From NCBI RefSeq assembly GCF_032302195.1, contig NZ_CP135275.1:1240001-1304000 (forward strand): 64,000 nt of DNA, written 5' to 3'. Every line of letters starts with the position of its first letter. Position 1 is the first letter of the stretch. A program made the translations under genes and the position numbers. This document shows positions 6,035-34,588 of this stretch, in pieces. The notes below the pieces were generated by a model. The model saw only the letters and a program-made list of their open reading frames with translations, was not told the origin of the DNA and ran no database searches. The stretch comes from Paenibacillus sp. MMS20-IR301 (GTDB lineage: Bacteria; Bacillota; Bacilli; Paenibacillales; Paenibacillaceae).

Positions 6035-6135
6035 ATAGATGAATCAGCAAGCAGGTCCGTGCGTATAGCCGCAGGGGCTTGTTTGTGCTAAGATTTGCCA
6101 TATGGGATTTTTTGAGAATTGAAGGGGGACTAGGC

Positions 6136-7296: not shown

Positions 7297-7371
7297 ATGA
7301 AGTATATCTAAATATCATATGAGGTTAAGTGCTGTTCATTTGCAATGTTTACTGAGACGGAGGCTTTCAAC

Positions 7372-8385: not shown

Positions 8386-8386
8386 G

Positions 8387-8414
8387 TTGACATGTGCACA
8401 CAAATGCATATAAT
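8387..8414 (+). promoter_or_regulatory. SigA promoter of the ArsR gene with embedded operator
   Basis: TTGACA at 8387-8392 and TATAAT at 8409-8414 with a 16-bp spacer. The spacer contains GTGCACACAAATGCATAT (8394-8411), which recurs in inverted orientation just before the MFS gene. ArsR repressors normally bind here, so autorepression is likely. Confidence 0.75.
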
Positions 8415-8433
8415 GAAATCAGGCGGTGAGGAT

Positions 8434-8766
8434 ATGGGAATCAATCAGGACCCGGCGAAATGTAAAAAGTTAATCGAAGACAATATCGACATTGAATTTT
8501 ACAGGGCGATATTCGATTCCGTGCGAAGCGAGCTGCTGATCTTCCTGGCTGCCAACGGAGAGATGACGATCGGGGAGATTGCCGAGCATTTCCCGCAGAA
8601 CCGGTCCGTGATATCCCGCCATCTGGATTATATGAACCGGTACAAGATTGTCCAGCGCAGGAAGGAAGGCCGGGAAGTGTATTATACAGCCAACCGGGAG
8701 TTTATTGTCGATACGTTTACCGAGACAGCGAATAATATGAAAGCACTCATGAATCTGCTGCAGTAG
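8434..8766 (+). CDS. ArsR-family winged-helix transcriptional repressor
   Basis: 110-residue regulator with a winged helix at about residues 33-95. The recognition helix region is PQNRSVISRHLDYM and the wing is VQRRKEGREVYYTAN. No CxC metal site of the classic ArsR/SmtB metal sensors is present, so it probably senses an organic ligand or uses another site. An in-frame ATG at 8392 lies inside the promoter and is rejected. The ATG at 8434 has GGTGAG upstream. It is directly followed by an MFS pump carrying the same operator motif, so it most likely represses both. Confidence 0.85.
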   Translation: MGINQDPAKCKKLIEDNIDIEFYRAIFDSVRSELLIFLAANGEMTIGEIAEHFPQNRSVISRHLDYMNRYKIVQRRKEGREVYYTANREFIVDTFTETANNMKALMNLLQ

Positions 8767-8785
8767 AGTGCTTTTATTTTATACA

Positions 8786-8805
8786 ATATGTGCATATGTG
8801 TGCAC
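8786..8805 (-). promoter_or_regulatory. Second copy of the ArsR operator, before the MFS gene
   Basis: On the minus strand this reads GTGCACACATATGCACATAT. It shares GTGCACACA and ATGCA with the element inside the ArsR promoter. It overlaps the region between a possible -10 (TACAAT at 8782-8787) and the MFS start. Confidence 0.6.
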
Positions 8806-8829
8806 GGGTACATGAGAGGGGATAATGTT

Positions 8830-10407
8830 GTGGAACAATCGGTTAGAAAATGGTGGGTGCTGGTTACCGTCAGCTTAGCGGTCTTCATGGCGATGCTGGA
8901 TATTACGATCGTGAATGTGGCTTTACCGGAGATTCAGAAGAATTTCGCCTCCGATTTCTCCAGTCTGCAGTGGGTTTTGAATGCTTATACGCTGGTGTAT
9001 GCGGCGATGCTGCTGCCGGTCTCGAAACTAGGAGATATCATCGGACGCAAAAAAGTATTTCTGCTCGGATTAGCAGTCTTCGTGCTGGGTTCCCTGGCGA
9101 GCGGACTAGCGGGCAGCGACCTGTGGTTGAACATCTTCCGGGGATTCCAGGGGATCGGCGGGGCTGCAATGATGTCCTTGTCGCTGACGCTGGTTACATC
9201 TTCTTTTCCTGAGAGGCAAAGAGGGCTGGCCTTAGGCATCTGGAGCAGTGCGGTGGGGCTGGCGATTTCCGGCGGTCCGCTGATTGGCGGCGCGCTAGTG
9301 GATAGCTTGGGCTGGCGCTCCATTTTCCTGGTGAATATCCCGTTTGGTCTGCTGGCGATTGTGTTAGGCCTAATCTTTCTTCAGGAAAGTGACCGTAACC
9401 GTAACGGTAAAATCGATATTCCCGGATTTGTGCTAAGCACGGCACTTATTTTCACTACAATCTTCGCTCTGATCCAGAAAGAAATGCATGCTGATTATTC
9501 GTGGACGGACTGGCATATTGTAAGCCTGTTGGGATTAGCGGTGCTCTTCTTAATCGCCTTTATTCTAACAGAACGGAAAGTGAAGCAGCCGATGATCGAG
9601 CTGTCGATTTTCCGGAGTTGGTCGTTTAATGGGGCCAACATTGCGGCGTTTGTGCTGGGGGCCGGGCTGTATGGGGGGTTCACCTACCTGACCATTCTGA
9701 TGCAGAATTTTATGGGCTACTCCGCTACCGAAACAGGTGTGAAAATGCTGCTGATCAGCGGCTTTACGCTGGTACTCGGTCCGCTCGCGGGCATCATCTC
9801 CGGTAAAATCGGCAACCGCTGGCTGATCAGCGGGGCGCTGCTGATTGGGGCGACCGGCATCCTTGTACTCCGGCAGATGATCGGGGTCCCGTTTGAGTGG
9901 AGCTACTTAATGCCCGGGTTCGTGCTGCTTGGCATCAGCAATGCGCTCGTCAATCCGCCAATCTCCAATGCGGCCATGAGCGCTGTAGACAAAAGGCAGG
10001 TAGGGATGGCCTCCGGCATCCTCAACGTATTCCGCCAGGTCGGGATTTCCTTTGGTGTAGTGATGCTGGGCATTCAGCTTAGCGAAGGCTATAACGGTTC
10101 ACTGGATAAACCTATCCAGGCGATGGAGGATATCAGCCCCGAATTCAAAAATCAGCTGCTGGATGTATTCCATCAGGCTGGAGCTTTTGCCGGCTCGCAG
10201 ATTTTCGAGAGTAAACAGGCAGCAGCATTCAAGGCAATGCCAGGCTTTGCGGACATGAAGAATATTGTGTACAGTGCCTTCAATGCAGGGATGAAAGAGG
10301 TAAGTTTGTTTATTGCTGTGTTTTTGGTTATTGGGGCGGTTGCGAGTGCTGCGATGATTTCAACAAGCAAACCGAAAAAAAAGCGAGAGGGGACAAAGCT
10401 TAGCTAA
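8830..10407 (+). CDS. MFS drug efflux transporter, DHA2 (EmrB/QacA) family
   Basis: About 525 residues with 14 predicted membrane segments. The DHA2 hallmark (MLDITIVNVALPEI) is in the first helix and GDIIGRKK in the first cytoplasmic loop. Upstream in-frame ATGs at 8788 and 8812 fall in or next to the operator. GAGAGGGGAT sits 7 nt before a GTG at 8830, so that is the likely start. A large extracellular loop precedes the last helix, as in EmrB-type pumps. It is likely induced when the preceding ArsR regulator releases the shared operator. The substrate is unknown. Confidence 0.9.
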   Translation: MEQSVRKWWVLVTVSLAVFMAMLDITIVNVALPEIQKNFASDFSSLQWVLNAYTLVYAAMLLPVSKLGDIIGRKKVFLLGLAVFVLGSLASGLAGSDLWLNIFRGFQGIGGAAMMSLSLTLVTSSFPERQRGLALGIWSSAVGLAISGGPLIGGALVDSLGWRSIFLVNIPFGLLAIVLGLIFLQESDRNRNGKIDIPGFVLSTALIFTTIFALIQKEMHADYSWTDWHIVSLLGLAVLFLIAFILTERKVKQPMIELSIFRSWSFNGANIAAFVLGAGLYGGFTYLTILMQNFMGYSATETGVKMLLISGFTLVLGPLAGIISGKIGNRWLISGALLIGATGILVLRQMIGVPFEWSYLMPGFVLLGISNALVNPPISNAAMSAVDKRQVGMASGILNVFRQVGISFGVVMLGIQLSEGYNGSLDKPIQAMEDISPEFKNQLLDVFHQAGAFAGSQIFESKQAAAFKAMPGFADMKNIVYSAFNAGMKEVSLFIAVFLVIGAVASAAMISTSKPKKKREGTKLS

Positions 10408-10742: not shown

Positions 10743-11960
10743 ATGTTAGTCCAAATGAAAAAAAGCGGAATCCACTGTCTAGCACTAGTATTACTGGCTT
10801 CAGTTGTCTTTGGCGGATGGAACGGGCGCGCAGCTGCGGCATCACCTATTACATCAGACTTCAGATCCTTGCAGGCCTCGCAGATCGTCAGCGAGATGGG
10901 AGCCGGATGGAATCTGGGCAATCAGCTTGAGGCATCGGTAAATGGTACACCCGGCGAGACAGCATGGGGGAACCCTACTGTAACTCCCGAACTAATCAAA
11001 AAGGTGAAAGCAGCAGGATTCAAAACAATTCGTATTCCGGTTTCCTATTTGAATTACATTGGAAGCGCTCCCGGATATACGGTCAATTCGGCATGGCTGG
11101 ATCGTGTGAAAGCAGTTGTTGATTACGCCTATAATGAAGGCTTGTATGTGGTCATTAATATTCACGGGGATGGTTACAATTCCGTTCAGGGCGGATGGCT
11201 TTTAGTCAATGGCAGCAACCAGACTGTCATCAAACAGAAGTATCAGAAGGTATGGCAGCAGATTGCCGACAAATTTGTCAATTACGACGAGCGGCTTATC
11301 TTTGAGTCGATGAACGAAGTGTTTGACGGCAGCTATAGCAATCCGAATTCGGCATATTACGCCAACCTTAATGCGTACAATCAAATCTTCGTGGATACGG
11401 TCAGACAGACAAGCGGCAACAATAGCGCCAGATGGCTGCTGGTTCCGGGCTGGAACACGAATATCGACTACACGGCCGGCAATTACGGATTTGTGCTTCC
11501 TACCGATACCTACAGATCGACTACAATTCCTGCTTCGGAAAAAAGAATCATGATCTCCGCCCACTACTATTCCCCGTGGGATTTTGCGGGCGAGGAATCA
11601 GGGAACATTACACAGTGGGGAGCGTCAGCCACGAATCCTTCCAAAAAATCAACCTGGGGACAAGAGGATTATCTCATTTCGCAGCTCCAGTCCATGTACA
11701 ATAAATTTGTTACCCAAGGCTACCCTGTAGTGATCGGAGAATTCGGTTCGATTGATAAATCCGCCTATGATTCAAGCAGTAACGTGTATCGTGCAGCTTA
11801 TGCCAAAGCCGTAACGGCGGCAGCCAAGACCTACAAAGCGGTACCGATCTATTGGGATAACGGCTACAACGGCCAGCACGGGTTCGGTTTGTTCAACCGT
11901 ACGAATAACACCGTAACCCAGCAAGGTATAATCAATGCAATTATGCAAGGCATGCAATAA
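10743..11960 (+). CDS. Secreted endoglucanase, glycoside hydrolase family 5
   Basis: 405-residue single-domain cellulase with an N-terminal signal peptide (to about AAAAS). The GH5 barrel shows GAGWNLGNQLEA, the acid/base Glu192 in FESMNEVFDG and the nucleophile Glu333 in VVIGEFGS. The WGNP and AHYYSPWDF motifs suggest the GH5 subfamily 4 group, active on cellulose, lichenan or xyloglucan. There is no carbohydrate-binding or anchoring module. GGAGGT lies just before the ATG. The gene stands alone between terminators, so control is probably from its own promoter region; no cre-like site was identified with confidence. Confidence 0.92.
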   Translation: MLVQMKKSGIHCLALVLLASVVFGGWNGRAAAASPITSDFRSLQASQIVSEMGAGWNLGNQLEASVNGTPGETAWGNPTVTPELIKKVKAAGFKTIRIPVSYLNYIGSAPGYTVNSAWLDRVKAVVDYAYNEGLYVVINIHGDGYNSVQGGWLLVNGSNQTVIKQKYQKVWQQIADKFVNYDERLIFESMNEVFDGSYSNPNSAYYANLNAYNQIFVDTVRQTSGNNSARWLLVPGWNTNIDYTAGNYGFVLPTDTYRSTTIPASEKRIMISAHYYSPWDFAGEESGNITQWGASATNPSKKSTWGQEDYLISQLQSMYNKFVTQGYPVVIGEFGSIDKSAYDSSSNVYRAAYAKAVTAAAKTYKAVPIYWDNGYNGQHGFGLFNRTNNTVTQQGIINAIMQGMQ

Positions 11961-11979
11961 TCGGGCGGTTTAGCTGAAG

Positions 11980-12010
11980 GAAGCTCCTGTGGAAATCACA
12001 AGAGCTTCTT
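11980..12010. terminator. Bidirectional terminator between endoglucanase and hydrolase genes
   Basis: GAAGCTC-TGTG pairs with CACA-GAGCTTC around a GAAAT loop, followed by TT. It belongs to a family of similar hairpins at 13.8, 15.5, 16.9 and 25.5 kb, all placed at the 3' end of minus-strand genes. Confidence 0.75.
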
Positions 12011-12050
12011 TGTGCTATAAATAATATTTTCGCCGGATAGTTCGGCTTCT

Positions 12051-12920
12051 TCACAGCAAATGTCTAATCAGCCAAGGCTTCAGTAGGGGCAGAACGGTGG
12101 CAGGCTGCATAGCTTTGGTGTGGTCCATATCTTGTCCCGCTACGACTTCTACATCCCACCCGAGCCCGGTTAATGCAGACTCATTTTGCTTGAGCGCGCC
12201 GATAATATCTACAGTTACATTGCCGAAGTTATCCCCATACACAATCGTATCCTTTTCTCCAGCAAAAGCGAGTCTTGGAAGTTCCAGCAGATGTTGAATC
12301 TCACGATCACGGAAATCCGTTAAGCTCTCATACATCGTAACAAACTGTTTCGTTTGAGCCGGGTTAATCTTCACCTGGATGTTATCCCAATCGATTGGAT
12401 CCGGATCAGCAGGGATCTGTACATCGGTATCTGAGAGAGTCAAGTTGCTTAAAGCCTGCCGGTACGTATGGTTGGTTACGATCAGCATTTCCTGATAAGG
12501 GCCATCCATTGGCGGGAAACCGCCCATGATCAAAGCCTCCAGCCTGTCAGTGCGGATGGCTAATTGCAATCCAACCAAGGCCAGCCAAGAATAACCGTAG
12601 TAGCTGAACTTGCCGACGTTCATTTCATCCGCAATGGTCAGCAGGTCCTGGACAATGCTCTCCGGGGTAAGCTGGTCCGGGTTCGGATGCTTGAGCCGGT
12701 GGCCCTCGTAGTCGAAGTAAAGTGCCTGGAACGTATCGTTGAGGCCCTCGATGAAATGCTGGCCCAGTTCAGGATCTACTCCCCACATCCGCAGATTCTC
12801 CGCTTCTTGCCCGTTTACGGATGGTTTGGCAACAGGAAGCATAATGACCGGAGAACCGGGTTTTCCAATGAGACCCACCTGCAGCTCTGTTTCATCTGAC
12901 AATTTAATAATCTTTTCCAC
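12051..12920 (-). CDS. Alpha/beta hydrolase
   Basis: About 289 residues with an alpha/beta-hydrolase core. The nucleophile elbow is YYGYSWLALVG (Gly-x-Ser-x-Leu, not the usual final Gly). The acid may be in EKDTIVYGDNF and the His in GQDMDHTKAM. The frame can start at 12968, but AGGAG at 12931-12935 fits a GTG at 12920, giving MEKIIKLSDETELQ. The substrate is unknown. It is divergent from the double-HTH MerR gene, and the 152-nt gap between them could be a shared control region. Confidence 0.8.
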   Translation of the reverse strand: MEKIIKLSDETELQVGLIGKPGSPVIMLPVAKPSVNGQEAENLRMWGVDPELGQHFIEGLNDTFQALYFDYEGHRLKHPNPDQLTPESIVQDLLTIADEMNVGKFSYYGYSWLALVGLQLAIRTDRLEALIMGGFPPMDGPYQEMLIVTNHTYRQALSNLTLSDTDVQIPADPDPIDWDNIQVKINPAQTKQFVTMYESLTDFRDREIQHLLELPRLAFAGEKDTIVYGDNFGNVTVDIIGALKQNESALTGLGWDVEVVAGQDMDHTKAMQPATVLPLLKPWLIRHLL

Positions 12921-13072
12921 TTCATCATCACTCCTGTGAACGTTATACCTCAATCTTATAACATTCATGCAAGCTTCCGGCTTACGGAACCCCGGTCCAG
13001 ATAGATTGCGGGTTATGAGCGGGATATGTTATCGTAGCACTTAAAGGTTCTACTTGAAGGAGGGGAGAGCGG

Positions 13073-13786
13073 ATGGAGACATATGCCCCAAACCAAATTG
13101 CAGATATCTTGCAGGTCAGCACCACAACACTTAGAAGATATGAAGAGCAAGGTCTCATTCCGGATGTACCGAGGACTCCAAGCAATTACCGTTACTATAG
13201 ACCGTTACACCTGCAGTCGTTCACTGCCATCAGAGTATTATTACAAGGCTATGAGATCCCGGTTGTGTATGAAGCTATGAGATTGATGAAGCAAGGGAGC
13301 ATGGAACAAGCCCTGTGGCTCTTGAATGAACAGCAATATCAGATTCAAATAGAGAAGCAGCGGGTGGAAGAGATTCTGACGATGATCCGAAGCACGGATT
13401 TCACCCGTTACCGCAATGTGCAATTGAAGGAACAGATGAATATAGGAGAAGCAGCCGCGATAGCAGGCGTGAACACTTCAGCGATCCGCCACTGGGAAGC
13501 CGAAGGACTCATCCGGTCAGTACGAAACCAGGACAATGGATTCAGAGTGTTCTCCCTGGCCGAGCTGCGCAAAATCCTGGTCATCAGCAGCTTGCGAAAA
13601 ACCGTCTATTACTTCGACAACATGAAGAGCCTGCTTAATAATCTGGACACGCAGGATAATGAGCAGATCGAGCAGTCTTTTCAGCTGGCGCTGGAAAATC
13701 TGAATAAACGGCTTGTCATCCAGTTTAAGGGAATTGCGGAGGCGGTTAAGTATTTGGAGGTTTGGGGTGGGGAGAAGGAAGGGTAA
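13073..13786 (+). CDS. MerR-family regulator with two HTH domains in one chain
   Basis: 237 residues. The first MerR-type winged helix is residues ~1-70 (YAPNQIADILQVSTTTLRRY then GLIPDVPRTPSNYRYY). The second starts at ~residue 126 (MNIGEAAAIAGVNTSAIRHW then GLIRSVRNQDNGFRVF). They are joined by a helical segment of ~50 residues, and a C-terminal helical tail follows. Ordinary MerR proteins dimerise to present two HTH units, so this protein may act as a pseudo-dimer or bind a longer site. There is no cysteine cluster for metal sensing. The AGGAGGGGAG ribosome site is ideal. It probably controls itself and the divergent hydrolase. Confidence 0.85.
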   Translation: METYAPNQIADILQVSTTTLRRYEEQGLIPDVPRTPSNYRYYRPLHLQSFTAIRVLLQGYEIPVVYEAMRLMKQGSMEQALWLLNEQQYQIQIEKQRVEEILTMIRSTDFTRYRNVQLKEQMNIGEAAAIAGVNTSAIRHWEAEGLIRSVRNQDNGFRVFSLAELRKILVISSLRKTVYYFDNMKSLLNNLDTQDNEQIEQSFQLALENLNKRLVIQFKGIAEAVKYLEVWGGEKEG

Positions 13787-13816
13787 GTGAGAGTTAGTAT
13801 AGTTAAACGTAAAAAG

Positions 13817-13845
13817 AGCTCCTGTGATTGGCACAGGGGCTTGTT
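13817..13845. terminator. Terminator hairpin between MerR and XRE genes
   Basis: AGCTCCTGTG pairs with CACAGGGGCT around ATTGG, then TTGTTTGTG. It serves the plus-strand MerR gene and the minus-strand XRE gene. Confidence 0.75.
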
Positions 13846-13860
13846 TGTGCTGTGAATGCT

Positions 13861-14079
13861 CTACTTAGCGGTATTGCGCTTGGGGTTATCTGTCTGCCCT
13901 AATAGGTAGTCGATGCTCACTTGATGAAAATTGGCTAATGTAATCAGAACAGCACTTGGAAGATCCAGATTACCATTTTCGTAGCGGGAATAAGTAGTCT
14001 GCGTAATATGTAGTAGCTCAGCCATTTGCTGTTGTGTCAGGTCTTTGTCTTCGCGCAGATTGCGGATTCTTGTGTACAA
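13861..14079 (-). CDS. Small XRE-family HTH regulator, cassette copy 1
   Basis: 72 residues, essentially one lambda-repressor-like HTH domain (LTQQQMAELLHITQTTYSRY) followed by a short SIDYLLGQTDNPK tail. The start is placed at TTG 14079 by analogy with the second copy, with AGGTGAT upstream; a GTG three codons earlier is also possible. It is divergent from a 94-residue DUF6809-like gene across a palindrome-rich spacer. A near-identical arrangement exists at 25.6-26.2 kb and a decayed one at 15.6 kb. It is likely the repressor of the divergent gene. Confidence 0.85.
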   Translation of the reverse strand: MYTRIRNLREDKDLTQQQMAELLHITQTTYSRYENGNLDLPSAVLITLANFHQVSIDYLLGQTDNPKRNTAK

Positions 14080-14103
14080 GGATATCACCTAAGCTCAGTT
14101 TAC

Positions 14104-14149
14104 TTTATGCGAAAAATGCATATTGTTATTTATGCGTTTTTCGCATAAA
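14104..14149. promoter_or_regulatory. Twin operator between divergent XRE and DUF6809-like genes, copy 1
   Basis: Two sites lie 25 bp apart. TTTATGCG-ttttt-CGCATAAA (14129-14149) is a perfect 8-bp inverted repeat. TTTATGCG-aaaaa-TGCATATT (14104 onward) is an imperfect version. The whole block is conserved almost base for base at 25815-25860, as expected for the XRE regulator's binding sites. Confidence 0.75.
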
Positions 14150-14191
14150 ATTTATACATAATAATACTATAGTCATTAAAAAGGAGGCCTG

Positions 14192-14476
14192 ATGAAGATT
14201 ATTCTGGAGGATTTCTACTATGAAAAGCTGCATCCCAATGAGCTAATTAAGCCAAATAATCCGGAAATTCTGGAACTAAGCCAAAAAGTCATGGAAGCAT
14301 CACAGCAGCTTAAAAAGAACTTAACTGTACAGGAGTTTCAGAAAGTTGAGAAGTTTCTTGATTTGCAAACAGAGTTGAATGCATTGCAAGCTGCATTATC
14401 ATTTATTCAGGGATATAAAATTGGGGCTTTGAAGATGATTGAAGTTTTTAGTGGAGAAAGTGAAGCTAAAGAATGA
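14192..14476 (+). CDS. DUF6809-like small protein, cassette copy 1
   Basis: 94-residue acidic, probably all-helical protein (MKIILEDFYYEKLHPNELIKP ... ALSFIQGYKIGALKMIEVF). I associate this pattern with the DUF6809 family; the name is from memory. AAAGGAGG precedes the ATG. It has no membrane segment. It is paired with a divergent XRE regulator and has a paralogue at 25902-26195. Possible roles are a phage-type accessory protein, or an antitoxin-like or signalling partner; none is shown. Confidence 0.75.
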   Translation: MKIILEDFYYEKLHPNELIKPNNPEILELSQKVMEASQQLKKNLTVQEFQKVEKFLDLQTELNALQAALSFIQGYKIGALKMIEVFSGESEAKE

Positions 14477-14493
14477 AATGAACAGTGGTTGAG

Positions 14494-14529
14494 TTAACCG
14501 GGGCGAAGGGATTTGCTTCGGTTTTTGTT
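14494..14529 (+). terminator. Terminator after DUF6809-like copy 1
   Basis: AACCG...CGAAG pairs with CTTCGGTT, then TTTTG. A related hairpin follows copy 2, and its 3' half survives next to the decayed third cassette. Confidence 0.6.
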
Positions 14530-14692
14530 GTTGAAAATGTAATTCAGATGGAGGAATTTAGTGCATTTAAAAGGACGAAAGGAAACCTTGTCGAATAATA
14601 AAAAGAAAATGATGAATGAGCATTAAAATAATGGATGGGATTAGGCATTAATTTTCGCACATATAATTTTTAGGTGAAGGAGTGTAACAATA

Positions 14693-15388
14693 GTGAAGAA
14701 AAAGTTAATGTTATCAGGTTTTCTTACTATTTTTTCAGTAGCATGTTTATCAATCACGGTCTATGCGGCCACTACAAGTTACTCTTTAAAGGTAAATGGG
14801 GCTGCAATTAAAGGAGAAGCAAAGGCCATTGACGGGGTAACCTATGTACCTTTGCGTACAGTTATTGAAGGAATGGGAGGCTCATATCACGTTATGCCTG
14901 ATTCAAAGACAATCAGCATCTCGCGAGAAGACAATAGTATGTACGGTGGATACACCAAGGCCAATCCATTACCTTTCGGTTCAAAAGCATATTTTGAAAT
15001 TAATGATAATTATGATAAGTACATAGGTTCAGTCACTATTGAAGATATGAGTACAGGAAAGGATGCATCGAAAATCCTTCAAGAGAAAACAGAGCCTGCT
15101 CCAAGTGGGTATACCTATGTTTTTGTAAAAGTGAATTTTGAAATCTTAGCATCTGAGAAGCCTGGAGCATCGCTAACAATAGACAATTATAGATTTCTAT
15201 ATATTGACCCGGCCACTCCGAAGGGAGTTCCCTCTTTTATGTTCCACAAATATTTGCCCAGCGTATCAAAAGGGGAATTCTTCAACGGCTGGGTTGGGTT
15301 TATAGTCCCGGAAGGTCCCCAGTCTGGATTGATTGTTTTATCAAGTTCTAATGACCGGCAGAATGCCTTGTGGATGGAAGTGGAGTGA
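14693..15388 (+). CDS. Small exported protein with one stalk-type domain
   Basis: 231 residues starting at GTG with AAGGAGTG upstream. A signal peptide ends near VYAAT. Residues ~32-80 carry one copper-amine-oxidase-type stalk repeat (VNGAAIKGEAKAIDGVTYVP then LRTVIEGMGG). The C-terminal ~140 residues are a beta-rich domain resembling the DUF4352/immunoglobulin-like folds of exported Firmicute proteins (YTYVFVKVNFEI). The function is unknown; it is probably anchored by or associated with the envelope. Upstream, 14530-14692 is AT-rich with no gene. Confidence 0.75.
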   Translation: MKKKLMLSGFLTIFSVACLSITVYAATTSYSLKVNGAAIKGEAKAIDGVTYVPLRTVIEGMGGSYHVMPDSKTISISREDNSMYGGYTKANPLPFGSKAYFEINDNYDKYIGSVTIEDMSTGKDASKILQEKTEPAPSGYTYVFVKVNFEILASEKPGASLTIDNYRFLYIDPATPKGVPSFMFHKYLPSVSKGEFFNGWVGFIVPEGPQSGLIVLSSSNDRQNALWMEVE

Positions 15389-23190: not shown

Positions 23191-23982
23191 ATGAAATTGG
23201 GAATGCCCACTTTAGCCGAATACACATCTATAGCTGATAATGTCCAATTATGTAAAGCACTTGGATTGGAATTTATCGAATTAAATATGAACCTTCCGAT
23301 CTGCACACCAGAGAAATTAAGTCCTTCGGAAATAGGTTACTACAAAGAAAAATACGGAATCGATTTTACAATTCATCTCCCTGAAGAATTAGATTTATCC
23401 TCCTATCACCCGTCAATAAGGAAGGGGCATCTAGAACGTTGCAGACAAGCGATGGAGTGGGCAAATCTGTCAGGAATAAAAACGCTGAACATGCACTTAA
23501 ATAATGGGATTTATTTCACCCTGCCGCAAACAAAGATCTGGATTAATGAACAGTATGAAGCCGATTTTTTAGAATTACTTTATGATTCGTATTCAGAACT
23601 TTATCATTTGGCTAAAATGTTTGAGGTTGAATTATGTATTGAGAACACGGGGAATTTTCACATTCCGCATATTCGAAAGGCTCTTGATCAGTTAAGTTCA
23701 TTCAATAACTTCTATCTTACCTGGGATGTGGGTCATGATGCGAAGGCAGGTTTCGATGAAGAATCCATCTTTACTTATTTCAGTGATCATATCAAACATA
23801 TGCATCTTCACGATTATAATGGCAAATCGGATCATCAGCCCTTATATACTGGAATTGTTCCAATCGATAACCGGCTGGAATTTGCTCAGCGAAACGATTT
23901 GTCTGTTGTTATTGAAATTAAAACCAGTCAGTCTTTAACTGAATCCGTATCGGAGCTTAAGAAAAAAGATTACCTAAGCTAA
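23191..23982 (+). CDS. Sugar phosphate isomerase/epimerase-like TIM-barrel protein
   Basis: 263 residues of the xylose-isomerase-like/AP-endonuclease-2 superfamily. Metal-ligand candidates appear in the expected order: FTIHLPEELD, LNMHLNNG, ELCIENTGN, TWDVGHDAK, HMHLHDYNG and VVIEIK. Relatives include inosose dehydratases and hydroxypyruvate isomerases. It has no neighbouring sugar genes, so the substrate is open. The upstream 23014-23190 region has no gene. Confidence 0.85.
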   Translation: MKLGMPTLAEYTSIADNVQLCKALGLEFIELNMNLPICTPEKLSPSEIGYYKEKYGIDFTIHLPEELDLSSYHPSIRKGHLERCRQAMEWANLSGIKTLNMHLNNGIYFTLPQTKIWINEQYEADFLELLYDSYSELYHLAKMFEVELCIENTGNFHIPHIRKALDQLSSFNNFYLTWDVGHDAKAGFDEESIFTYFSDHIKHMHLHDYNGKSDHQPLYTGIVPIDNRLEFAQRNDLSVVIEIKTSQSLTESVSELKKKDYLS

Positions 23983-25860: not shown

Positions 25861-25901
25861 ATTTATACATGGTAGAGTATTAGTCTGCGAAAGGAGGCTT
25901 G

Positions 25902-26195
25902 ATGGTAATCATTTTGGAGGATTTCTATTACGCAAAATTACGACCGAATGAGTTGATTAAGCCTAATGATCCGGAATTGCAGAAGATTAATCAGAGAATT
26001 ATTGATGTACTGCACATGCTTAAAACAAAAATGTCCGAAGAAGATTTTGAACAAGTTGAAGAGCTATATGATTTACAGAGTGACTCAAATTCTTTGCACT
26101 CAGCATTATCTTTTATCCAAGGCTATAAGATAGGAGCATTAATGATGATTGATGTCTTTAGTGGGGAGAAAGATTCCATCTATGAAGGCATATAA
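25902..26195 (+). CDS. DUF6809-like small protein, cassette copy 2
   Basis: 97 residues from the ATG at 25902 (a TTG one codon earlier is also in frame), with AAAGGAGG upstream. It aligns end to end with the copy at 14.2 kb. IILEDFYYAKL, RPNELIKPNDPE and ALSFIQGYKIGALMMIDVF are conserved, while the middle helix has diverged (LHMLKTKMSEEDFEQVEEL). Strong conservation of both ends suggests that both copies are functional. The function is unknown. Confidence 0.75.
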   Translation: MVIILEDFYYAKLRPNELIKPNDPELQKINQRIIDVLHMLKTKMSEEDFEQVEELYDLQSDSNSLHSALSFIQGYKIGALMMIDVFSGEKDSIYEGI

Positions 26196-26254: not shown

Positions 26255-27099
26255 AAAAAAACCATTAGAGTCGGAATCGATCTTGGGCATATTGCGATAT
26301 GGTTAACGGATAACAAGATACCTATGCCGTACAACAACGAAATGTGGCCAAATGGAGATTCCCTGAAGAAGAACGAATCAAGGTTATGAGAACACATGAG
26401 AAATTGAAGACACAGGAAGAACATGATGCCATCGTAGGAGGTTTAGTGAAGAATAGGCTGATGAATCCCAATAGCTGGAGATGAATATTTCCCCTGTTGG
26501 AATTACTCTACTGTGAGAAATGCGGAAGTAGAATGCAGTTCAGAGTCGGTAAAAGCAAGAAACAGGGCCAATTTTGGAGTGCTTTATGCTATCACCATTA
26601 TAAGGATGGCAGCAAATGTGAGCAGAAGGGGAAGGTGTTGGACGAAGCGTTTTTTGATACTTTATATGAGCGGATCAGCAATGTTGACCCGATTATTTTG
26701 CAGGAAATCGAGCAGCAAGGTCGCGGTTATAACGATACGAAGATTATGATTGCCGTGAAGGAGCAGGAGCTGCAAAAGCATAAACGGGCATTAGATAAAC
26801 TACATGAATCCTATGAAGAGGACATGATTGCAAAGCAGGTCTTCTTGGAGCGGAAAATTGTTAGAACAAGACAGATTCAGAAACTCGAGGAAGAATTGCA
26901 GGATTTGCGGAAGGTGGTAGTGGATGAAGGTAATTATCCTACGATGGAGCAGATCGTTGAACGGATTGGGCAGTTTTGAGAGCTGTGTAGTGAAGCGGTG
27001 ACAAGTGAAGAGAAGAATCGGGCGTTGAGGAAGCTAGTGGAGCGGATTGTTTATAACCGGGAAGGAAATCGGGTGGAGTTGACGGTTTGTTATAGGTAG
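26255..27099 (+). pseudogene. Decayed large serine recombinase (C-terminal part)
   Basis: Pieces of a phage/ICE-type large serine recombinase. At ~26262-26360 one frame reads ...IAIWLTDNKIPMPYNN, which resembles the recombinase domain. A frame change then leads into VAKWRFPEEERIKVMRTH..., an in-frame TGA at 26482, and the zinc-ribbon region LLYCEKCGSRMQF with a second CxnC in SALCYHHY. A coiled coil follows. A second in-frame TGA at 26977 interrupts the end, after which the same frame continues (EEKNRALRKLVERIVYNREG) to a TAG at 27097. The N-terminal catalytic domain is absent, so it is inactive. It marks an old integrated element next to the AT-rich module. Confidence 0.85.
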
Positions 27100-27128
27100 T
27101 AAAAATAAGAATATCAAATCATAGTAAA

Positions 27129-27154
27129 GGGCCTCTAGAATTTATTCTAGAGCC
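27129..27154. terminator. Hairpin between the recombinase remnant and the AT-rich module
   Basis: GGCCTCTAGAAT pairs with ATTCTAGAGCC around TT. The following 27155-27439 is AT-rich and gene-free; a TATAAT at 27403-27408 may belong to the next gene's promoter, but no good -35 was seen. Confidence 0.55.
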
Positions 27155-27439
27155 ATTTGCATGGGGTAATTTGGTCTTTTTGGGAGGGGAAAATCAATTC
27201 TTGTCGAATATTTTTAACAGTAGTAGTTTCACAACTAATAAATGGTTAATAGTGCAAAGAAATTCTATAAGTTCGAGTTTTCAATTCAGTTAACATTTTA
27301 TCTAAGTAAAGTTTCACTTAATAAAAAGGGCTCATTTCCTTTTTTAAAAGTGATTATTATTTGATATAGAACTGTATGTAACTTGGAAATGTCTTGGTAA
27401 TTTATAATGATTAGGATCACTAAATTATAAAAGGGGAAG

Positions 27440-30400
27440 ATGGGGAAATTGAGAACAAATTTAAATGCATATAATTTTCAAAAATTAACACCTATAAAAA
27501 ATGCTGATTTAAGCATTTACGAGGCTGCTTTAGATTTTGTATTTCAAGAAGAAGATCTAAAGAATATTGCCATAACAGGCCCCTATAGTGCAGGGAAAAG
27601 TAGTGCTGTTGAATCATACTTATTTAGTAGACCTGATAAACAATTCTTGAATATTTCGCTTGCGCATTTCGATTCAGTGAAAAATGAAGGTGAGATGAGT
27701 GATCCTGAGATAATAGAAACCTTAAAAAACACAACAAATAATGATGCTGCAATTGAAGGGAAAATCCTAAATCAGTTAATTCATCAAATTAATCCTCAGA
27801 GTATTCCTCAATCACATTTTAAGGTGAAAAGAAAGGTATCAAAACGAAAGATCTTCCGAATTTCTTCTCTTTTTACTATTTCGATTATATTGATACTATA
27901 TATTTTGAATTTTAAAACTTGGAAAGATACATTTGATGGTTTATCCAGTAAATGGTTAAAAACTTTCCTTGAATTTTCAACTTACGATAGCTCTTTTTTC
28001 TTGGGAGGAGTATGTGCAGTTATCATTTTGTTAGTTACAATTTACAGTATTGTTAAAATTCAATATAACCGAAATATATTTAAGAAAATAACAGTTCAAG
28101 GAAACGAAATTGAAATATTTTCAGAAGCAAATGAATCCTATTTTGATAAATACCTTAACGAAGTGCTTTACCTTTTTGAAAATGCTGACGTTGAAGTCAT
28201 AGTTTTTGAAGATATTGATAGATTTAATAGTAATCATATTTTTGAAAAACTAAGGGAAATCAATCTTCTAATTAACAAGAAGTCTGGAAAAGTTATACGT
28301 TTCTTTTATCTTCTTCGTGATGACATTTTCACTTCTAAGGATCGAACTAAGTTTTTTGATTTTATAATACCGATTGTACCTGTTGTTGACGCTTCAAATT
28401 CATATGATCAATTTATTAATCATTTTAAGAAAGGAAATATATTTGGGAATTTTGACGAAAGTTTTTTACAGGGACTCTCTCTATATATTGACGATATGCG
28501 TATGCTTAAAAATATTTACAATGAGTATGTAATTTATCATGACCGTATACAATCTACAGAATTAAATCCAAATAAATTATTGGCGGTAATTACATATAAA
28601 AATATATTTCCTAAAGATTTTAGCGAATTACAGCTTGGAAAGGGATTCATTCATAATTTATTTGAAAATAAAAATACTCTAATAGAAATAGAAATGAATA
28701 AATTCAGTCGCGAAATTCAAGAGAAAGAAATTCAAATTCTTAATACTGAAAATGAAATTTGTAATAAAATTGACGAATTAGATGCATTATATTTTAAAAC
28801 GGAAATGTTGGGTGTTATAGATGTAGGGGGACAATATGAGAATCAATTTAACTCCAGGGCGTCTTTTATAAGACGAATGAAAAGCAATCCTCAGCAAGTA
28901 TATATTAGTCGACCAAATTATAATGGAAGATATCAGTTAGATTTTGAAACTGAATATGCAAAGCTAGACCTAAATACTGAATATACTGATAGAAAACGAA
29001 AAGTTGAGAATAAATCTAGAATTAATGTTATAAGGTCTGAGATCAGTGAATTAAGCAATAAAAAAGTATTATTGGAAAGTAGAAAGCTCAGTGAAATAAT
29101 TAACAAAGATAATATAAATGAAGTTTTTAAAGTCACTTTTACTAATGAAATAGGTGAGAATGTTTCATATAATGAGGTCAAGTCAAGCCCATATTTTGGA
29201 CTAATCAAATTCCTAATTAGAAATGCTTATATTGATGAAACTTATTCAGATTATATGACATATTTTTATGAAAATAGTCTTAGTAGGGCGGATAAAATCT
29301 TTTTACGCAGTGTGACCGATGAAATTCCTAAGGAGTACTCATATCAGCTTAAAAATCCGTCATTAGTTGTTACTCGACTTAAGTCTGCAAATTATAATCA
29401 AGAAGAGATTTTAAACTTCGACCTATTGGAGTACTTGTTACATAACGAGAATGAGAACTTAAATAGATTTATTATTCAACTTAAAACTAAAAATAGGTAC
29501 GATTTTGTTTTGCAGTTTTGGATTACAGAGCGAGAAAAGGTTTCTTTTATTAAGTCATTGAATCATCTTTGGCCCCATGTATTAAAAGGCGTACTCAATG
29601 ATAATAATTTTTCTGAGATTCAAAAAGCAAACTTTATTCTTGACGCTCTTTACTACTCGCTGACTAGTGATTTAGAAGAACAAAATGATGAAAATTGTCT
29701 AACTGTATATTTATCAGAAAATAAAGATTTTCTGAATATAAATGAACCAGATATATCTACTATTATTGCAAAATTAAAATTATTGAACGTGAAATTCAAA
29801 CAAATTAACTATGCTAATGCTAACAGGTCACTCTTTTTAGCCGTTTATGAGGATGAACTCTATGAAATAAATATGTATTTAATCGAAGTGATTTTAAAAG
29901 AAATATATAATTTACCAACTGTCAATGATAGTTACAAACATAATAGTTACACACTTATAGTATCTAAACCTGAAGAGGCTCTGGTTAAATATGTGAAGAG
30001 AAATATTGAACAATATGTCGAATTAATTTTAGAACATTGCGATTCGATAATAACAGATGATGAAAATGTTGCACTTGAAATTATTAATCAAGAAGATATT
30101 AAACCTGAACTTATATTTACATATATCGAATATCTCCAAACAACAATAGAGAAGTTAGAAAGTGTTATTAATAAAGATTATTGGCCTAAATTATTGTTGC
30201 AAAAGAATTTGCGCTACTCTGAACACAATATATTACAATACTACTTTTACTTAGAGGATGATTTTGGGGAGGTTCTAGTAGATTTCATTAATGGTAATGG
30301 AGTAGATTTGAATTTTAATTATAATGAAATAAAAGATGAATTTGGGACGAGTGAAACTGCATCTTTTTTTAGAAAAATAATTATAAGTGAAAGCTTAAGC

Positions 30401-31198
30401 AATGAAAAATATGAAATATTCATAAGAGATTTCAAAAGGTATTATAATGAGTTTAAATTTGAGGGAATCTCCGATGCTAAGCTTCAAATTTTAATGAAGT
30501 ATGAAGTTGTAAGGATGAATGATTTTAACCTGAAGTTTGTAAGAGATAATTATTCTGAACAACTGATTTATTTTATTATCCTAAATATTGATATTTATAT
30601 TAATGAAGTAATAAACGATGATAATTTTGAGATTTCTGAATTACTGAGTTTGCTGGATAAAGACATAAACGATGATCATAAGTTGAATTTAATGGCCTAT
30701 TCCACTGAACCCATATCCATGACTGGTAAGCAGTATTCTGAAAGACTTGAGTATAATATCTTAGAAAACAATTTTAACATTATTGATCTTCCGTATATAG
30801 TGAGTGGATATGATCAAAAAAGTACAAGTCTGCGTAAGAAGATCAAATCTATTAGTATTCAGCATTTTGACCAAATTCTTAGAGAGAATTATAAAGTTCC
30901 GTATGATCTTCTAATTGATATTTTTGAATCGAGTGAAGTTGGAAAATCAAGCAAAAAAAGATTACTGGTTTCTCATATTATTCACCTAAATGAAGTACAA
31001 ACAACTACTTGTTTGCAACTTTTGGATATGACTGATGTTATAAGTTTATTTTCCGGTAGAAGGCCGAAAATTGAGAGAAATAATGAAAATGAAAAAATCC
31101 TGGAAATATTTAAAACAAAAGGATGGATTACTAGTTTTAACATAGATAGGCAAGATAATGATTATTTTAGAGCGATAGGACGCAGAGCTTATATATAA
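27440..31198 (+). CDS. Large YobI-like membrane P-loop NTPase
   Basis: 1252 residues. Walker A is GPYSAGKSS (residues 47-55) and Walker B is VIVFEDIDRF (about 253-262). Two membrane helices (~141-158 and ~186-205) lie between them, inside the NTPase domain. A coiled coil follows at ~415-455, then ~750 residues of mostly helical sequence without recognisable motifs. This matches the YobI-type P-loop NTPases of Firmicutes, a group related to KAP/STAND NTPases. A membrane-inserted NTPase with a long helical sensor region is typical of conflict proteins, but activity against phage is inference. The gene is far more AT-rich than its neighbours, with AAAGGGGAAG before the ATG, and pairs with the zinc-finger gene 50 nt downstream. 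Confidence 0.8.
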   Translation: MGKLRTNLNAYNFQKLTPIKNADLSIYEAALDFVFQEEDLKNIAITGPYSAGKSSAVESYLFSRPDKQFLNISLAHFDSVKNEGEMSDPEIIETLKNTTNNDAAIEGKILNQLIHQINPQSIPQSHFKVKRKVSKRKIFRISSLFTISIILILYILNFKTWKDTFDGLSSKWLKTFLEFSTYDSSFFLGGVCAVIILLVTIYSIVKIQYNRNIFKKITVQGNEIEIFSEANESYFDKYLNEVLYLFENADVEVIVFEDIDRFNSNHIFEKLREINLLINKKSGKVIRFFYLLRDDIFTSKDRTKFFDFIIPIVPVVDASNSYDQFINHFKKGNIFGNFDESFLQGLSLYIDDMRMLKNIYNEYVIYHDRIQSTELNPNKLLAVITYKNIFPKDFSELQLGKGFIHNLFENKNTLIEIEMNKFSREIQEKEIQILNTENEICNKIDELDALYFKTEMLGVIDVGGQYENQFNSRASFIRRMKSNPQQVYISRPNYNGRYQLDFETEYAKLDLNTEYTDRKRKVENKSRINVIRSEISELSNKKVLLESRKLSEIINKDNINEVFKVTFTNEIGENVSYNEVKSSPYFGLIKFLIRNAYIDETYSDYMTYFYENSLSRADKIFLRSVTDEIPKEYSYQLKNPSLVVTRLKSANYNQEEILNFDLLEYLLHNENENLNRFIIQLKTKNRYDFVLQFWITEREKVSFIKSLNHLWPHVLKGVLNDNNFSEIQKANFILDALYYSLTSDLEEQNDENCLTVYLSENKDFLNINEPDISTIIAKLKLLNVKFKQINYANANRSLFLAVYEDELYEINMYLIEVILKEIYNLPTVNDSYKHNSYTLIVSKPEEALVKYVKRNIEQYVELILEHCDSIITDDENVALEIINQEDIKPELIFTYIEYLQTTIEKLESVINKDYWPKLLLQKNLRYSEHNILQYYFYLEDDFGEVLVDFINGNGVDLNFNYNEIKDEFGTSETASFFRKIIISESLSNEKYEIFIRDFKRYYNEFKFEGISDAKLQILMKYEVVRMNDFNLKFVRDNYSEQLIYFIILNIDIYINEVINDDNFEISELLSLLDKDINDDHKLNLMAYSTEPISMTGKQYSERLEYNILENNFNIIDLPYIVSGYDQKSTSLRKKIKSISIQHFDQILRENYKVPYDLLIDIFESSEVGKSSKKRLLVSHIIHLNEVQTTTCLQLLDMTDVISLFSGRRPKIERNNENEKILEIFKTKGWITSFNIDRQDNDYFRAIGRRAYI

Positions 31199-31248
31199 GA
31201 TTTATAGTTTTAACAATTAAAATAATTTTCATTAAGAAGGTGAGATTC

Positions 31249-32127
31249 GTGAAAATAGAGTGGGCCTATTATGAAAACGGTGATGATACAGAAGAAGTTT
31301 ACTATGAACATCTTGATAAAGATTTGTATGAATCAAAATATCAAGAACACCTTTACTGTATTAGTGATGAATGTGATGCAATGATTAAATTTACACATCG
31401 TAAAAATGGAGTGAAGTTTTTTAGTACTTGGAATGGTCAAGGCGATTTACATGACATCGAATGTCCGTATTTTCTCAAAGATAAAGGAGAAGTTGAACGA
31501 AAAAATATACTTCATCAAATTGAATCTGCTCCGGTTACTGATGAACATATAATTAATACTATACTTAATAAAAGTAAAAAATTGAAAGAAAAAGAAAAAA
31601 GGAAAAAGCAAAACACAAGAATTATGACAAGAAGAACTTTACAAGGTAAACAAACAAGTCAACCAGAGAAAATTGATAATGGTGAAATAGATCAGTTTGG
31701 CAGTTCTAGCATAAGAATCTTTAGTTTGGATTCAAAACACATAACCCCTGATTATGTTGGATATAGGAAATGCGTATTCGGTAAGATAAGGCATGTTTAC
31801 TTCCACGAAACTGACGGTTATGTTTATCTGAATCTTGATAATGCTCAGTACAGAGTTAGTATATATTTGCCTCAAGCATTTTATGCTGATCCAGAAAAAA
31901 CCACAAAATCAGCATTGGTTTCCTTTGTTGATATAATTAAACAAGAGCTACATGTTCATAAAGAGCTTGTTATTATATGTGTTGGAATGATTCAATTTAA
32001 AAAAGGAAGTCAACAAGATGTAAATATCCATGTTATTAATCCGTCTCATTTACTAATAAATGATATGAAGTACTACGAGATTATTACGAACAGTTCGGTA
32101 AGTTCAAATCCTTATAATTATTTGTAG
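31249..32127 (+). CDS. Zinc-finger protein partner of the YobI-like NTPase
   Basis: About 292 residues from GTG 31249 (AAGGTGAG upstream; a GTG at 31240 is also in frame). An N-terminal C-x4-C-x25-H-x3-C cluster (YCISDEC ... LHDIEC) looks like a zinc ribbon, reminiscent of the N-terminus of CoiA-like proteins. A strongly basic linker follows (KLKEKEKRKKQNTR). The C-terminal ~140 residues are beta-rich (VFGKIRHVYFHETDGYVYLNL) and could be an OB-like fold. It is AT-rich like the preceding gene and almost certainly co-transcribed. No known family was recognised; a nucleic-acid-binding role is inferred. Confidence 0.7.
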   Translation: MKIEWAYYENGDDTEEVYYEHLDKDLYESKYQEHLYCISDECDAMIKFTHRKNGVKFFSTWNGQGDLHDIECPYFLKDKGEVERKNILHQIESAPVTDEHIINTILNKSKKLKEKEKRKKQNTRIMTRRTLQGKQTSQPEKIDNGEIDQFGSSSIRIFSLDSKHITPDYVGYRKCVFGKIRHVYFHETDGYVYLNLDNAQYRVSIYLPQAFYADPEKTTKSALVSFVDIIKQELHVHKELVIICVGMIQFKKGSQQDVNIHVINPSHLLINDMKYYEIITNSSVSSNPYNYL

Positions 32128-32358
32128 CTAAATGAATCTCTAATTAATATATTATTAATCTAAGGGATTTGATATTGCGTTAGACAAAGGATGTTTGGTC
32201 TTTTTATGGGGTCAGTCTTCCAGAACGTGTGTGTAGATATAAATTAGGTTTTTATTACGAAGTTAATATCAGAAGAAGGGAAGTTTATATAGAGTACTTT
32301 AATAAAGGGGAACTGAGTTTTACCAAAATATTCAAGCTAAAGTTTCAGAGTAGTCATG

Positions 32359-32393
32359 AAAGGTAACCCCAAACCTATGGAGTTACCTTTTTG
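32359..32393 (+). terminator. Terminator closing the AT-rich module
   Basis: AAAGGTAAC-CCCA pairs with TGG-GTTACCTTT around AAACCTA, followed by TTT. The stretch 32128-32358 has no recognisable gene. Confidence 0.8.
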
Positions 32394-32479
32394 TATTCCT
32401 TGCGCCTTCTCCCGCCAAATTGGGTAAACTAACCCTAGATGTACTTTACCCAAATTCATCTGAAATGAGGGGACGCCCC

Positions 32480-34588
32480 GTGACAACTCACAAGTCACCC
32501 AATAGATTAGCCAACGAAAAATCGCCCTATTTACTACAACATGCTCACAACCCCGTGGATTGGTATCCATGGGGAGAAGAGGCTTTTGCCAAAGCCAGGT
32601 CAGAAAACAAGCCGATCTTCCTTTCAGTCGGCTATTCGACTTGCCATTGGTGTCACGTAATGAATCACGAATCCTTCGAAGACAACGAAGTCGCAGAGCT
32701 CCTTAACAATCACTACGTAGCGATCAAAGTCGACCGCGAAGAGCGGCCGGACATAGATGCGCTGTATATGTCGGTGTGTCAGGCGCTGACGGGGAGCGGG
32801 GGATGGCCGCTGACGGTGCTGCTGACGCCGGAGAAGAAGCCGTTCTATGCGGGAACGTATTTCCCGAAGCGGCAGATGTTCGGCCGGATCGGGCTGATGG
32901 ATGTGCTGGAGCAGATCCATACGAAGTGGGAGCAGGACGGCGGGGCGCTCAATAAGCTGGGCGACGACCTGCTCGCGGAGCTGCAGAGTCTTGACCGGAA
33001 GAATGCGCACAGCCCGGGCGCTGCGGACAGTGGCATTCCTGGTGAAGAGCTGCTGCATGAAGCGTATGAGCTGTACCGCCGCCAGTTCGATGAGGAATAC
33101 GGCGGGTTCGGCAATGCGCCGAAGTTCCCTTCGCCGCATAATTTGTCCTTCCTGCTGGCGTACAGCCAGATGTATGACCAGCCGCAGGCGCTCGCGATGG
33201 TCGAGAAGACGCTGAAGGCGATGTATCAGGGCGGCGTGTACGACCATGTGGGCTTCGGGTTCGCACGGTATTCGACGGACCGGGAATGGCTGGTGCCGCA
33301 TTTTGAGAAAATGCTCTACGATAACGCGCTGCTCGCGAACGTCTATCTGGAAGCCTTCCAGATTACCGGGATCTCGCTGTATGCGGACATTGCGGAGCAG
33401 ATCTTTACGTATGTCGCCCGTGATATGACCTCGCCGGAAGGAGCATTCTACTCTGCTGAAGATGCCGATTCGGAAGGGGTGGAAGGCAAATTCTATGTAT
33501 TCTCACGCGATCAGGTTGAGGAAGCGCTGGGGCTGGAGGATATGCATTCGTACTGCCATGTGTACGGAATCACACCGGAAGGCAACTTCGAAGGGCTGAA
33601 CATTCCTAATCTGCTGCAAGGATTACCGGAAGAGGTGGCGGAGCGCATGGGCATGAATCCGCTGGCGCTGCGGACAAGAGTGGAGGAATGGCGGGAGAAG
33701 CTGTTCCAGTACCGGGAGCAGCGGATTCACCCGTCCAAGGATGATAAGGTGCTTACCTCCTGGAACGGGCTGATGATTGCGGCACTGGCGAAGGGAGCAA
33801 AAGCTCTGCAAAAGCCCGGATATGCCAAAGCCGCCGCCCGTGCTGCGGACTTCATCTGGGACAAGCTGCGGCGTGAAGATGGCCGGCTTCTGGCCCGTTA
33901 CCGTGACGGGGAGGCGGCGATCCCTGCCTATGTGGACGACTATGCCTTCCTGATCTGGGGGCTGACGGAGCTATATGAAGCAACCGGTCAAGCGGTCTAT
34001 CTGGAGCGTGCTTTGCTGCTCAAAGACGGGCTGCTGGAGCTGTTCCATGATCCGGATGGCGGCGGGTTCTTCTTCACAGGCCATGACGGCGAGGAGCTGC
34101 CGATCCGTCCGAAGGAGCTGTATGACGGCGCCCTTCCCTCCGGCAATGCGGTGGCCGCGAAGCTGCTCTGGAAGCTGTCTGTGATTGCCCAGGATGTGGA
34201 GCTGAAAGGCATTGCCGAGCGGACTGCTGCGGTGCTGGCTTCTGCGGCGGCAGGGTATCCTCCCGGTTATGCGATGTATCTGCAGGCGCATCTGGGAATG
34301 CTCTCAGGCGGCAGGGAATGGGTACTCTCCGGCAAAAAAGAAGATCCGGCGCTGCACGGTATGCTCGCCCAGGTCCAGCAGGCTTATCTGCCGGATGCGG
34401 CTGTGCTCGTGAACTGGCAGGAGGATGGCGGAGCTCCGCTGCAGAAGCTGCTGCCTCATCTTGCAGATAAACCGGCGCTCAGCGGACAGGCTACAGCCTA
34501 TGAGTGCCGGAATTTCGCCTGCCGGGCACCGGTTACGAATGCGGAGGCGGTCAGGGAGCTGCTGGCTGCCGGGCTGCGTGAAGTATAA
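32480..34588 (+). CDS. YyaL-type thioredoxin-domain protein (DUF255 family)
   Basis: About 702 residues from GTG 32480, which has TGAGGGG upstream; the frame opens earlier at 32420, but family members begin near [17 protein letters not shown]. The N-terminal thioredoxin-like domain has the CHWC motif (STCHWCHVM) and [10 protein letters not shown]. The C-terminal two thirds form an alpha/alpha barrel like six-hairpin glycosidases. Homologues (YyaL, human SPATA20) are widespread, but their reaction is unknown. The length is normal. Base composition returns sharply to GC-rich here. Confidence 0.88.

Follow-up and report, generated by a model that had tools for sequence, protein, structure and literature searches.

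A Tmn/YobI-family gene and its zinc-finger/OB-fold neighbour in Paenibacillus: a possible mobile anti-phage cassette at a putative yyaL hotspot

Are the two adjacent AT-rich genes near 27–32 kb of a 64,000-nucleotide stretch of Paenibacillus sp. MMS20-IR301 (NZ_CP135275.1, positions 1,240,001 to 1,304,000; this whole stretch is the window, and its own numbering is used below) a two-gene anti-phage system, or two genes that merely share a site? The list of open reading frames (ORFs) places gene 1 at 27440-31198 (1252 amino acids), followed by gene 2 on the same strand; the recombinase remnant, the hairpins, the parts of the two genes and the yyaL 5' end given below are all on the + strand. The initial annotation had read them as a module with the logic of anti-phage or plasmid-conflict systems that was not a named system. 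The explanation we favour, at about even confidence, is a recently mobile anti-phage cassette at an integration hotspot, the 5' end of a yyaL-like gene, in which a Tmn-type NTPase (gene 1) is combined with a non-obligate defence-island gene (gene 2).

On the evidence of its sequence, gene 1 belongs to the named anti-phage family Tmn/YobI and is not an unnamed NTPase, and the statement that this is not a named system does not hold for gene 1, which has a name by itself. It matches Pfam YobI-ATPase (PF20693) with an E-value of 2.1e-120 (403 bits, where the cut-off is 27), and the PADLOC Tmn model (PDLC02220, for which no curated cut-off is given) with an E-value of 1.1e-70 over residues 9-917. 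A plasmid homologue in E. coli annotated as 'anti-phage transmembrane ATPase' shares 28% identity with gene 1 over 721 amino acids, and the profile alignment of the two has a probability of 100. Hydropathy peaks at residues 138-156 and 187-205 both fall between the Walker A motif (GPYSAGKS, residues 47-54; 27578-27601) and the Walker B motif (VIVFED, residues 253-258; 28196-28213), and correspond to two predicted membrane helices at about residues 138-157 and 187-208 (27851-28063); together with the Pfam match these features bear out the 1252-residue, YobI-like P-loop NTPase with two membrane helices that had been proposed. Gene 1 thus has the layout under which Tmn is described in a passage of PMC11846954, a KAP-type NTPase with two membrane segments, which here lie between Walker A and Walker B. 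Residues 401-1252 (28640-31195), earlier noted as a long helical region, are indeed modelled almost entirely as helices, forming a long alpha-solenoid (AlphaFold2, template-free; mean predicted local distance difference test score (pLDDT) 89.5, predicted template-modelling score 0.54). This solenoid has no PDB match in Foldseek at E <= 0.001, and the best match of gene 1 by sequence among solved structures has only E 0.89. The YobI family is common (5483 proteins at E <= 1e-10 among 7995 scored candidates) and is found in 639 plasmid records, 467 of them from Escherichia; none was found in phage records, and gene 1 is the sole YobI match in its own genome.

Because the Tmn/YobI profiles, the homology and the helix layout between Walker A and Walker B agree, we read gene 1 as a Tmn-type defence NTPase, which would be held in the membrane by its two helices. 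Judging from the family, the alpha-solenoid most likely recognises an infection cue, and recognition would switch the NTPase to an infection-blocking state at the membrane. Tmn was reportedly first named in a 2020 defence-island screen. According to parts of PMC11846954, E. coli Tmn blocks several phages, a phage-encoded inhibitor exists, phage escape mutations fall in a DNA-modification gene, and the mechanism of Tmn is called unexplored.

Gene 2 represents an undescribed family as far as profile and open-access literature searches show; in a term-based search of that literature, nothing turned up that describes gene 2 or the yyaL hotspot. Its ORF runs from 31240 to 32127 (295 amino acids), and we prefer the GTG start at 31249, after AAGAAGGTGAG, which yields a protein of 292 amino acids (31249-32127). 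This protein combines a finger of the form C37-x4-C42...H68-x3-C72 (31357-31464) with a basic linker and, at its C-terminus, a predicted OB fold (about residues 158-286; 31720-32106). The finger had been pointed out from the sequence of gene 2 itself, and an alignment with 32 relatives upholds it: H68 and C72 do not vary, and conservation of C37 and C42 is 90% or more. Likewise, the C-terminus described as beta-rich is modelled as a five-stranded OB barrel, with pLDDT mostly at least 90 across residues 171-289; OB domains fill the Foldseek match lists of the gene 2 model (OB fold, E 1.5e-4), and a search of the gene 2 sequence against PDB gave no match. From the predicted OB fold and the conserved finger, we infer that gene 2 is a nucleic-acid-binding protein.

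How regularly do the two genes occur together? YobI matches over the cut-off are present in eight of 295 genomes of the bacterial family (G245 barely over it), and gene 2 matches at E <= 0.001, fragments included, in 20 of them (14 by a smaller profile). Both are found together in two of the 295 genomes, that of the window and a congener (G126), in which genes 1 and 2 are adjacent, in the same order and at the same chromosomal site. Six of the eight YobI genomes have no gene 2, and 18 of the 20 genomes with a gene 2 match (some of these fragments) have no YobI. Gene 2 matches occur in seven of 100 genomes of a genus sample (three of them short fragments) and in 12 of 398 genomes of a class sample; in a phylum sample the window itself is the one match in 398, with none in the other 397 among the limited candidates scored per genome, although Clostridial relatives of gene 2 do exist. 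Five relatives came from a scan of genome contigs, and two plasmid records, from E. eligens, carry gene 2; none was found in viral contigs and phages. Five further strong Tmn genes (L063-L067) have no gene 2 in the 20-kb stretch surrounding them, and Tmn is absent from the stretches examined around lone gene 2 copies, a search outside which L146-L159 lie. An obligate partnership as a family-wide rule is ruled out by these counts, and because most Tmn and most gene 2 genomes are unpaired, it is more plausible to regard gene 2 as a non-obligate member of defence islands than as a Tmn subunit.

The two copies that do co-occur, on the other hand, look like a unit. Between the window and G126, the synonymous divergence (dS) of gene 1 is 0.206 and that of gene 2 is 0.186, versus 0.705 for the adjoining yyaL-like gene, and the ratio of non-synonymous to synonymous divergence (dN/dS) is 0.157, 0.114 and 0.105, respectively; both genes are intact. 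In 250-base steps, identity is 0.88-0.98 across 27.5-32.0 kb, drops to 0.70 and 0.69-0.79 in the flanking spacers, and is 0.79-0.89 in yyaL. The similar low dS and low dN/dS argue for joint movement and for constraint: most simply, the two genes were transferred as one after species divergence, and by their dN/dS both are under purifying selection. The conserved co-occurrence that the initial annotation proposed as a check hence shrinks to two genomes, and what stands of it is the joint movement of these two copies. The spacing from gene 1 to gene 2 is 50 bases with the GTG start, or 41 bases from ORF to ORF, the latter being the same in both carriers; since the spacing is this short and no conserved sequence lies far upstream of gene 2, gene 2 is probably co-transcribed with gene 1. 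At the DNA level, similarity to lone gene 2 copies is confined to the gene and the 11-29 bases ahead of its start codon, ending by the stop codon, which suggests that gene 2 came to tmn as a bare gene.

The shared gene order and spacing, the similar dS and an identity that is highest over exactly these two genes would also be expected of a true two-gene Tmn variant, in line with the initial annotation, in which this Tmn subtype receives a nucleic-acid signal through gene 2 as its dedicated partner. We consider such a variant unlikely: the pair is present in two of eight YobI genomes and two of 20 gene 2 genomes, in one genus and at one site, and the nearest gene 2 relatives with known surroundings (L002 and L052) have no Tmn in the stretch examined. 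The linkage of tmn and gene 2 is a local variant.

The site itself appears to be prone to insertion. Gene 2 is followed by the yyaL-like gene (Thioredox_DsbH, DUF255), whose 5' end lies at 32388-32658 and which is found at E <= 1e-100 in 35 of 61 genomes of the genus; we compared 15 of these 35 loci, G126 included. The stretches upstream of yyaL vary among the 15 relatives and often have a low guanine-plus-cytosine (GC) content. In five of the 15 (L100, L102, L104, L111 and L112), the complete gene is preceded by one or more additional, truncated yyaL 5' ends, around which the cargo varies; a control segment from within yyaL occurs once in the window and once in each of the 15, and neither the window nor G126 has an extra 5' copy. 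Extra truncated 5' ends with a single internal segment fit repeated integration, from which we infer that the yyaL 5' end is an integration hotspot. Of ten cargo proteins taken from six of these loci, five gave no PADLOC match; the five with a match (E <= 0.001) are HamA and HamB (L109), an OLD/GajA-like protein (L100), an AriA/GajA-type AAA ATPase (L111) and a patatin-like effector (L110, E 1.9e-10). The defence genes of L109 and L110 are farther out, past a homologue of another conserved gene, and therefore mark the region, not the exact site. HamA and HamB of L109 form a Hachiman pair upstream of yyaL (11836-15319). A search of the window's own genome with the OLD profile returned generic ATPase matches only (best E 2.5e-17) and was not used.

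It is the joint low dS, the identity peak over the pair and a hotspot with defence cargo that lead us to the mobile-cassette reading. Could the pair instead be cargo of the island that plays no part in phage defence, with gene 1 serving the cell in another way? A term-based search of the open-access literature found no experiment that challenged either this locus or a YobI of Bacillales with phage, as would suit such cargo; the two papers that it gave for yobI together with phage and B. subtilis are, by their titles, on nitrogen regulators. Still, dN/dS values of 0.11-0.16, the joint transfer, the assignment of gene 1 to Tmn and the known defence genes in the hotspot region of relatives make this explanation very improbable. 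The anti-phage logic first proposed is supported for gene 1 by its family, and also by the position in a variable hotspot whose region carries known defence genes in relatives; as an interpretation of the whole locus it is partly supported.

If gene 2 is not tied to Tmn, its other neighbours may indicate what it belongs to. We tabulated 29 relatives with an ORF of at least 240 amino acids (30 with the window), leaving out a broken copy (L058) and short fragments. The nearest 5' ORF (at least 150 amino acids) is a recognised defence gene in seven of the 30: Tmn in the window and G126, IetS in L004 and L006 (IetAS being assigned in L006 by about 90% identity to that of L004), REase_II in L149 (at 450 bases), REase_I in L150 (338 bases) and MTase_II in L057 (1130 bases); at most five of these cases are independent. 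The broken copy lies 85 bases from GajA, which is followed by GajB. 20 neighbouring proteins from 15 gene 2 loci, picked by size and closeness, were scanned with PADLOC, and 12 of them, from eight loci, match at E <= 1e-30; the matched neighbours in L056, L062 and L148 are 2.6-6.5 kb from gene 2. As a control, 20 stretches were drawn at random from the same genomes, two were dropped for overlap with gene 2 stretches, and 103 of the 112 ORFs of at least 300 amino acids in the other 18 were scanned. At the same threshold 31 families were matched, and the 25 listed have one member each, under seven names (PD-T4-6, dGTPase, mad6, SspA, DndA, C3a189 and MkoA); no restriction, Gaj, Iet or Ham family is among these 25 of the 31.

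Because its relatives adjoin IetS and restriction genes of types I and II, and a broken copy adjoins Gabija, we read gene 2 as a defence-island gene; the ties of its family to defence are suggestive and unproven. Some observations weigh against this reading. The gene 2 copies of L146, L147, L154 and E. eligens have ordinary neighbours, those of L052 and L055 have neighbours that match neither PADLOC nor Pfam, and in 23 of the 30 tabulated copies the nearest 5' neighbour is not a recognised defence gene, with part of the neighbours scanned; moreover, the scanned neighbours are only a size-chosen part, and the control stretches were not island-matched. These 23 copies, and the confinement of similarity with lone copies to the gene itself, would suit a stand-alone gene 2, with a one-gene defence or other island function, whose place behind tmn is incidental. 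We regard this as improbable, given that gene 2 repeatedly adjoins unrelated defence genes and has moved jointly with tmn. In the mobile-cassette explanation, which we favour, gene 2 would belong to the defence island as an accessory or as an independent gene, and would have become attached to this copy of tmn and travelled with it ever since; it most likely binds phage nucleic acid, adding to or tuning the neighbouring defence. A further-reaching proposal, which we offer tentatively and with some doubt, is that gene 2 founds an unrecognised and promiscuous defence-accessory family, a finger/OB nucleic-acid sensor set as a bare gene next to systems of unrelated mechanism (Tmn, IetAS, type I/II restriction and Gabija), which would pass a phage nucleic-acid signal on to the system it joins or tune that system.

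Several neighbourhoods of gene 2 relatives hold other genes. Low-GC ORFs that match neither PADLOC nor Pfam are located upstream of gene 2 in L052 (7775-9166; 463 amino acids, at 320 bases) and L055 (7787-9187; 466 amino acids, at 244 bases). In L153, a phospholipase-D/NgoFVII-like gene lies 47 bases downstream of the gene 2 relative, and its protein and a NucS_C protein, together spanning 5317-9412 directly downstream, have no PADLOC match at E 1e-8; the two are a possible undescribed nuclease system. A caspase-domain (Peptidase_C14) protein is encoded about 1.7 kb from the gene 2 relative of L060 (11383-12831).

The composition and borders of the pair in the window are as follows. GC is 0.281 in gene 1 and 0.306 in gene 2 (292-amino-acid form) against a window mean of 0.474, in agreement with the AT-richness first remarked on; per 1-kb bin it is 0.38-0.43 upstream (20-27 kb) and 0.45-0.59 downstream (32-35 kb). 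Third-position GC is 0.23 in gene 1 and 0.22 in gene 2, compared with 0.68 in the next downstream gene and 0.45 in a 332-amino-acid upstream gene. The dead recombinase reported next to the pair is the C-terminal remnant (160 amino acids, 26497-26979) of a serine recombinase, with matches to Pfam Zn_ribbon_recom (E 6.5e-7) and PHROG 95 integrase (E 4.9e-14), and G126 has a remnant at the equivalent place, 56% identical to it. The pair was also said to be bounded by terminators, which is only half supported: the hairpin with a T run 3' of gene 2 (32358-32391; -15.1 kcal/mol, z -3.9, none of 200 shuffles equally stable) is a candidate that folding supports, whereas the hairpin 5' of gene 1 (27120-27163; -17.6 kcal/mol, z -1.7) is weak and lacks a T run, and a consensus terminator scan gave no terminator-like site for either. 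A 12-base direct repeat (TTTGGTCTTTTT, at 27170 and 32194, unique to these sites in the window) was dropped as an element boundary, because about 100 chance 12-mer pairs are expected in 64 kb by a rough estimate. Farther upstream, an AP_endonuc_2 family protein (23191-23982) also matches CbiR, the cobamide remodelling phosphodiesterase, though under the cut-off. Near these islands a small DUF6809 protein is found repeatedly (window, 25899-26195; L053, 15009-15341; L055, 11996-12310; L063, 7276-7563), and the window, G126 and L063 have it upstream of tmn.

A Gram-positive Tmn linked to a conserved, probably nucleic-acid-binding gene provides a handle on what Tmn senses. Were gene 2 a plug-in for unrelated defence systems, it would amount to a common nucleic-acid recognition layer, and the yyaL 5' end is a place to seek new defence genes in this group.

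Among known systems, a CoiA-domain protein is one of the systems listed in part of PMC9519451, and the N-terminal finger of the one CoiA_N protein compared has a C...C...H...C arrangement near its N-terminus, as in gene 2; gene 2, however, has C-x4-C where the CoiA_N protein has C-x2-C, and it lacks the HFAH motif. A CoiA-like N-terminus of gene 2 is unsupported: hhalign gives a probability of 0.2 with this protein and aligns it outside the finger, and CoiA_N is absent from the families matching at E <= 1 in 18 gene 2 family members. The modelled C-terminus of gene 2 resembles the anticodon-binding OB domains of AspRS, AsnRS and LysRS, the PolC OB domain and Teb1 OB-B, but it is 7-20% identical to these when structurally aligned, and gene 2 has no synthetase domain. 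Gene 1 shares with the Tmn system the NTPase domain, the membrane helices between Walker A and Walker B and a similar length; it differs from known Tmn in coming from a Gram-positive lineage, and its C-terminal third, past residue 917, is outside the match to the PADLOC model. Finally, gene 1 is followed by gene 2, whereas the annotated E. coli Tmn stretch has no gene 2.

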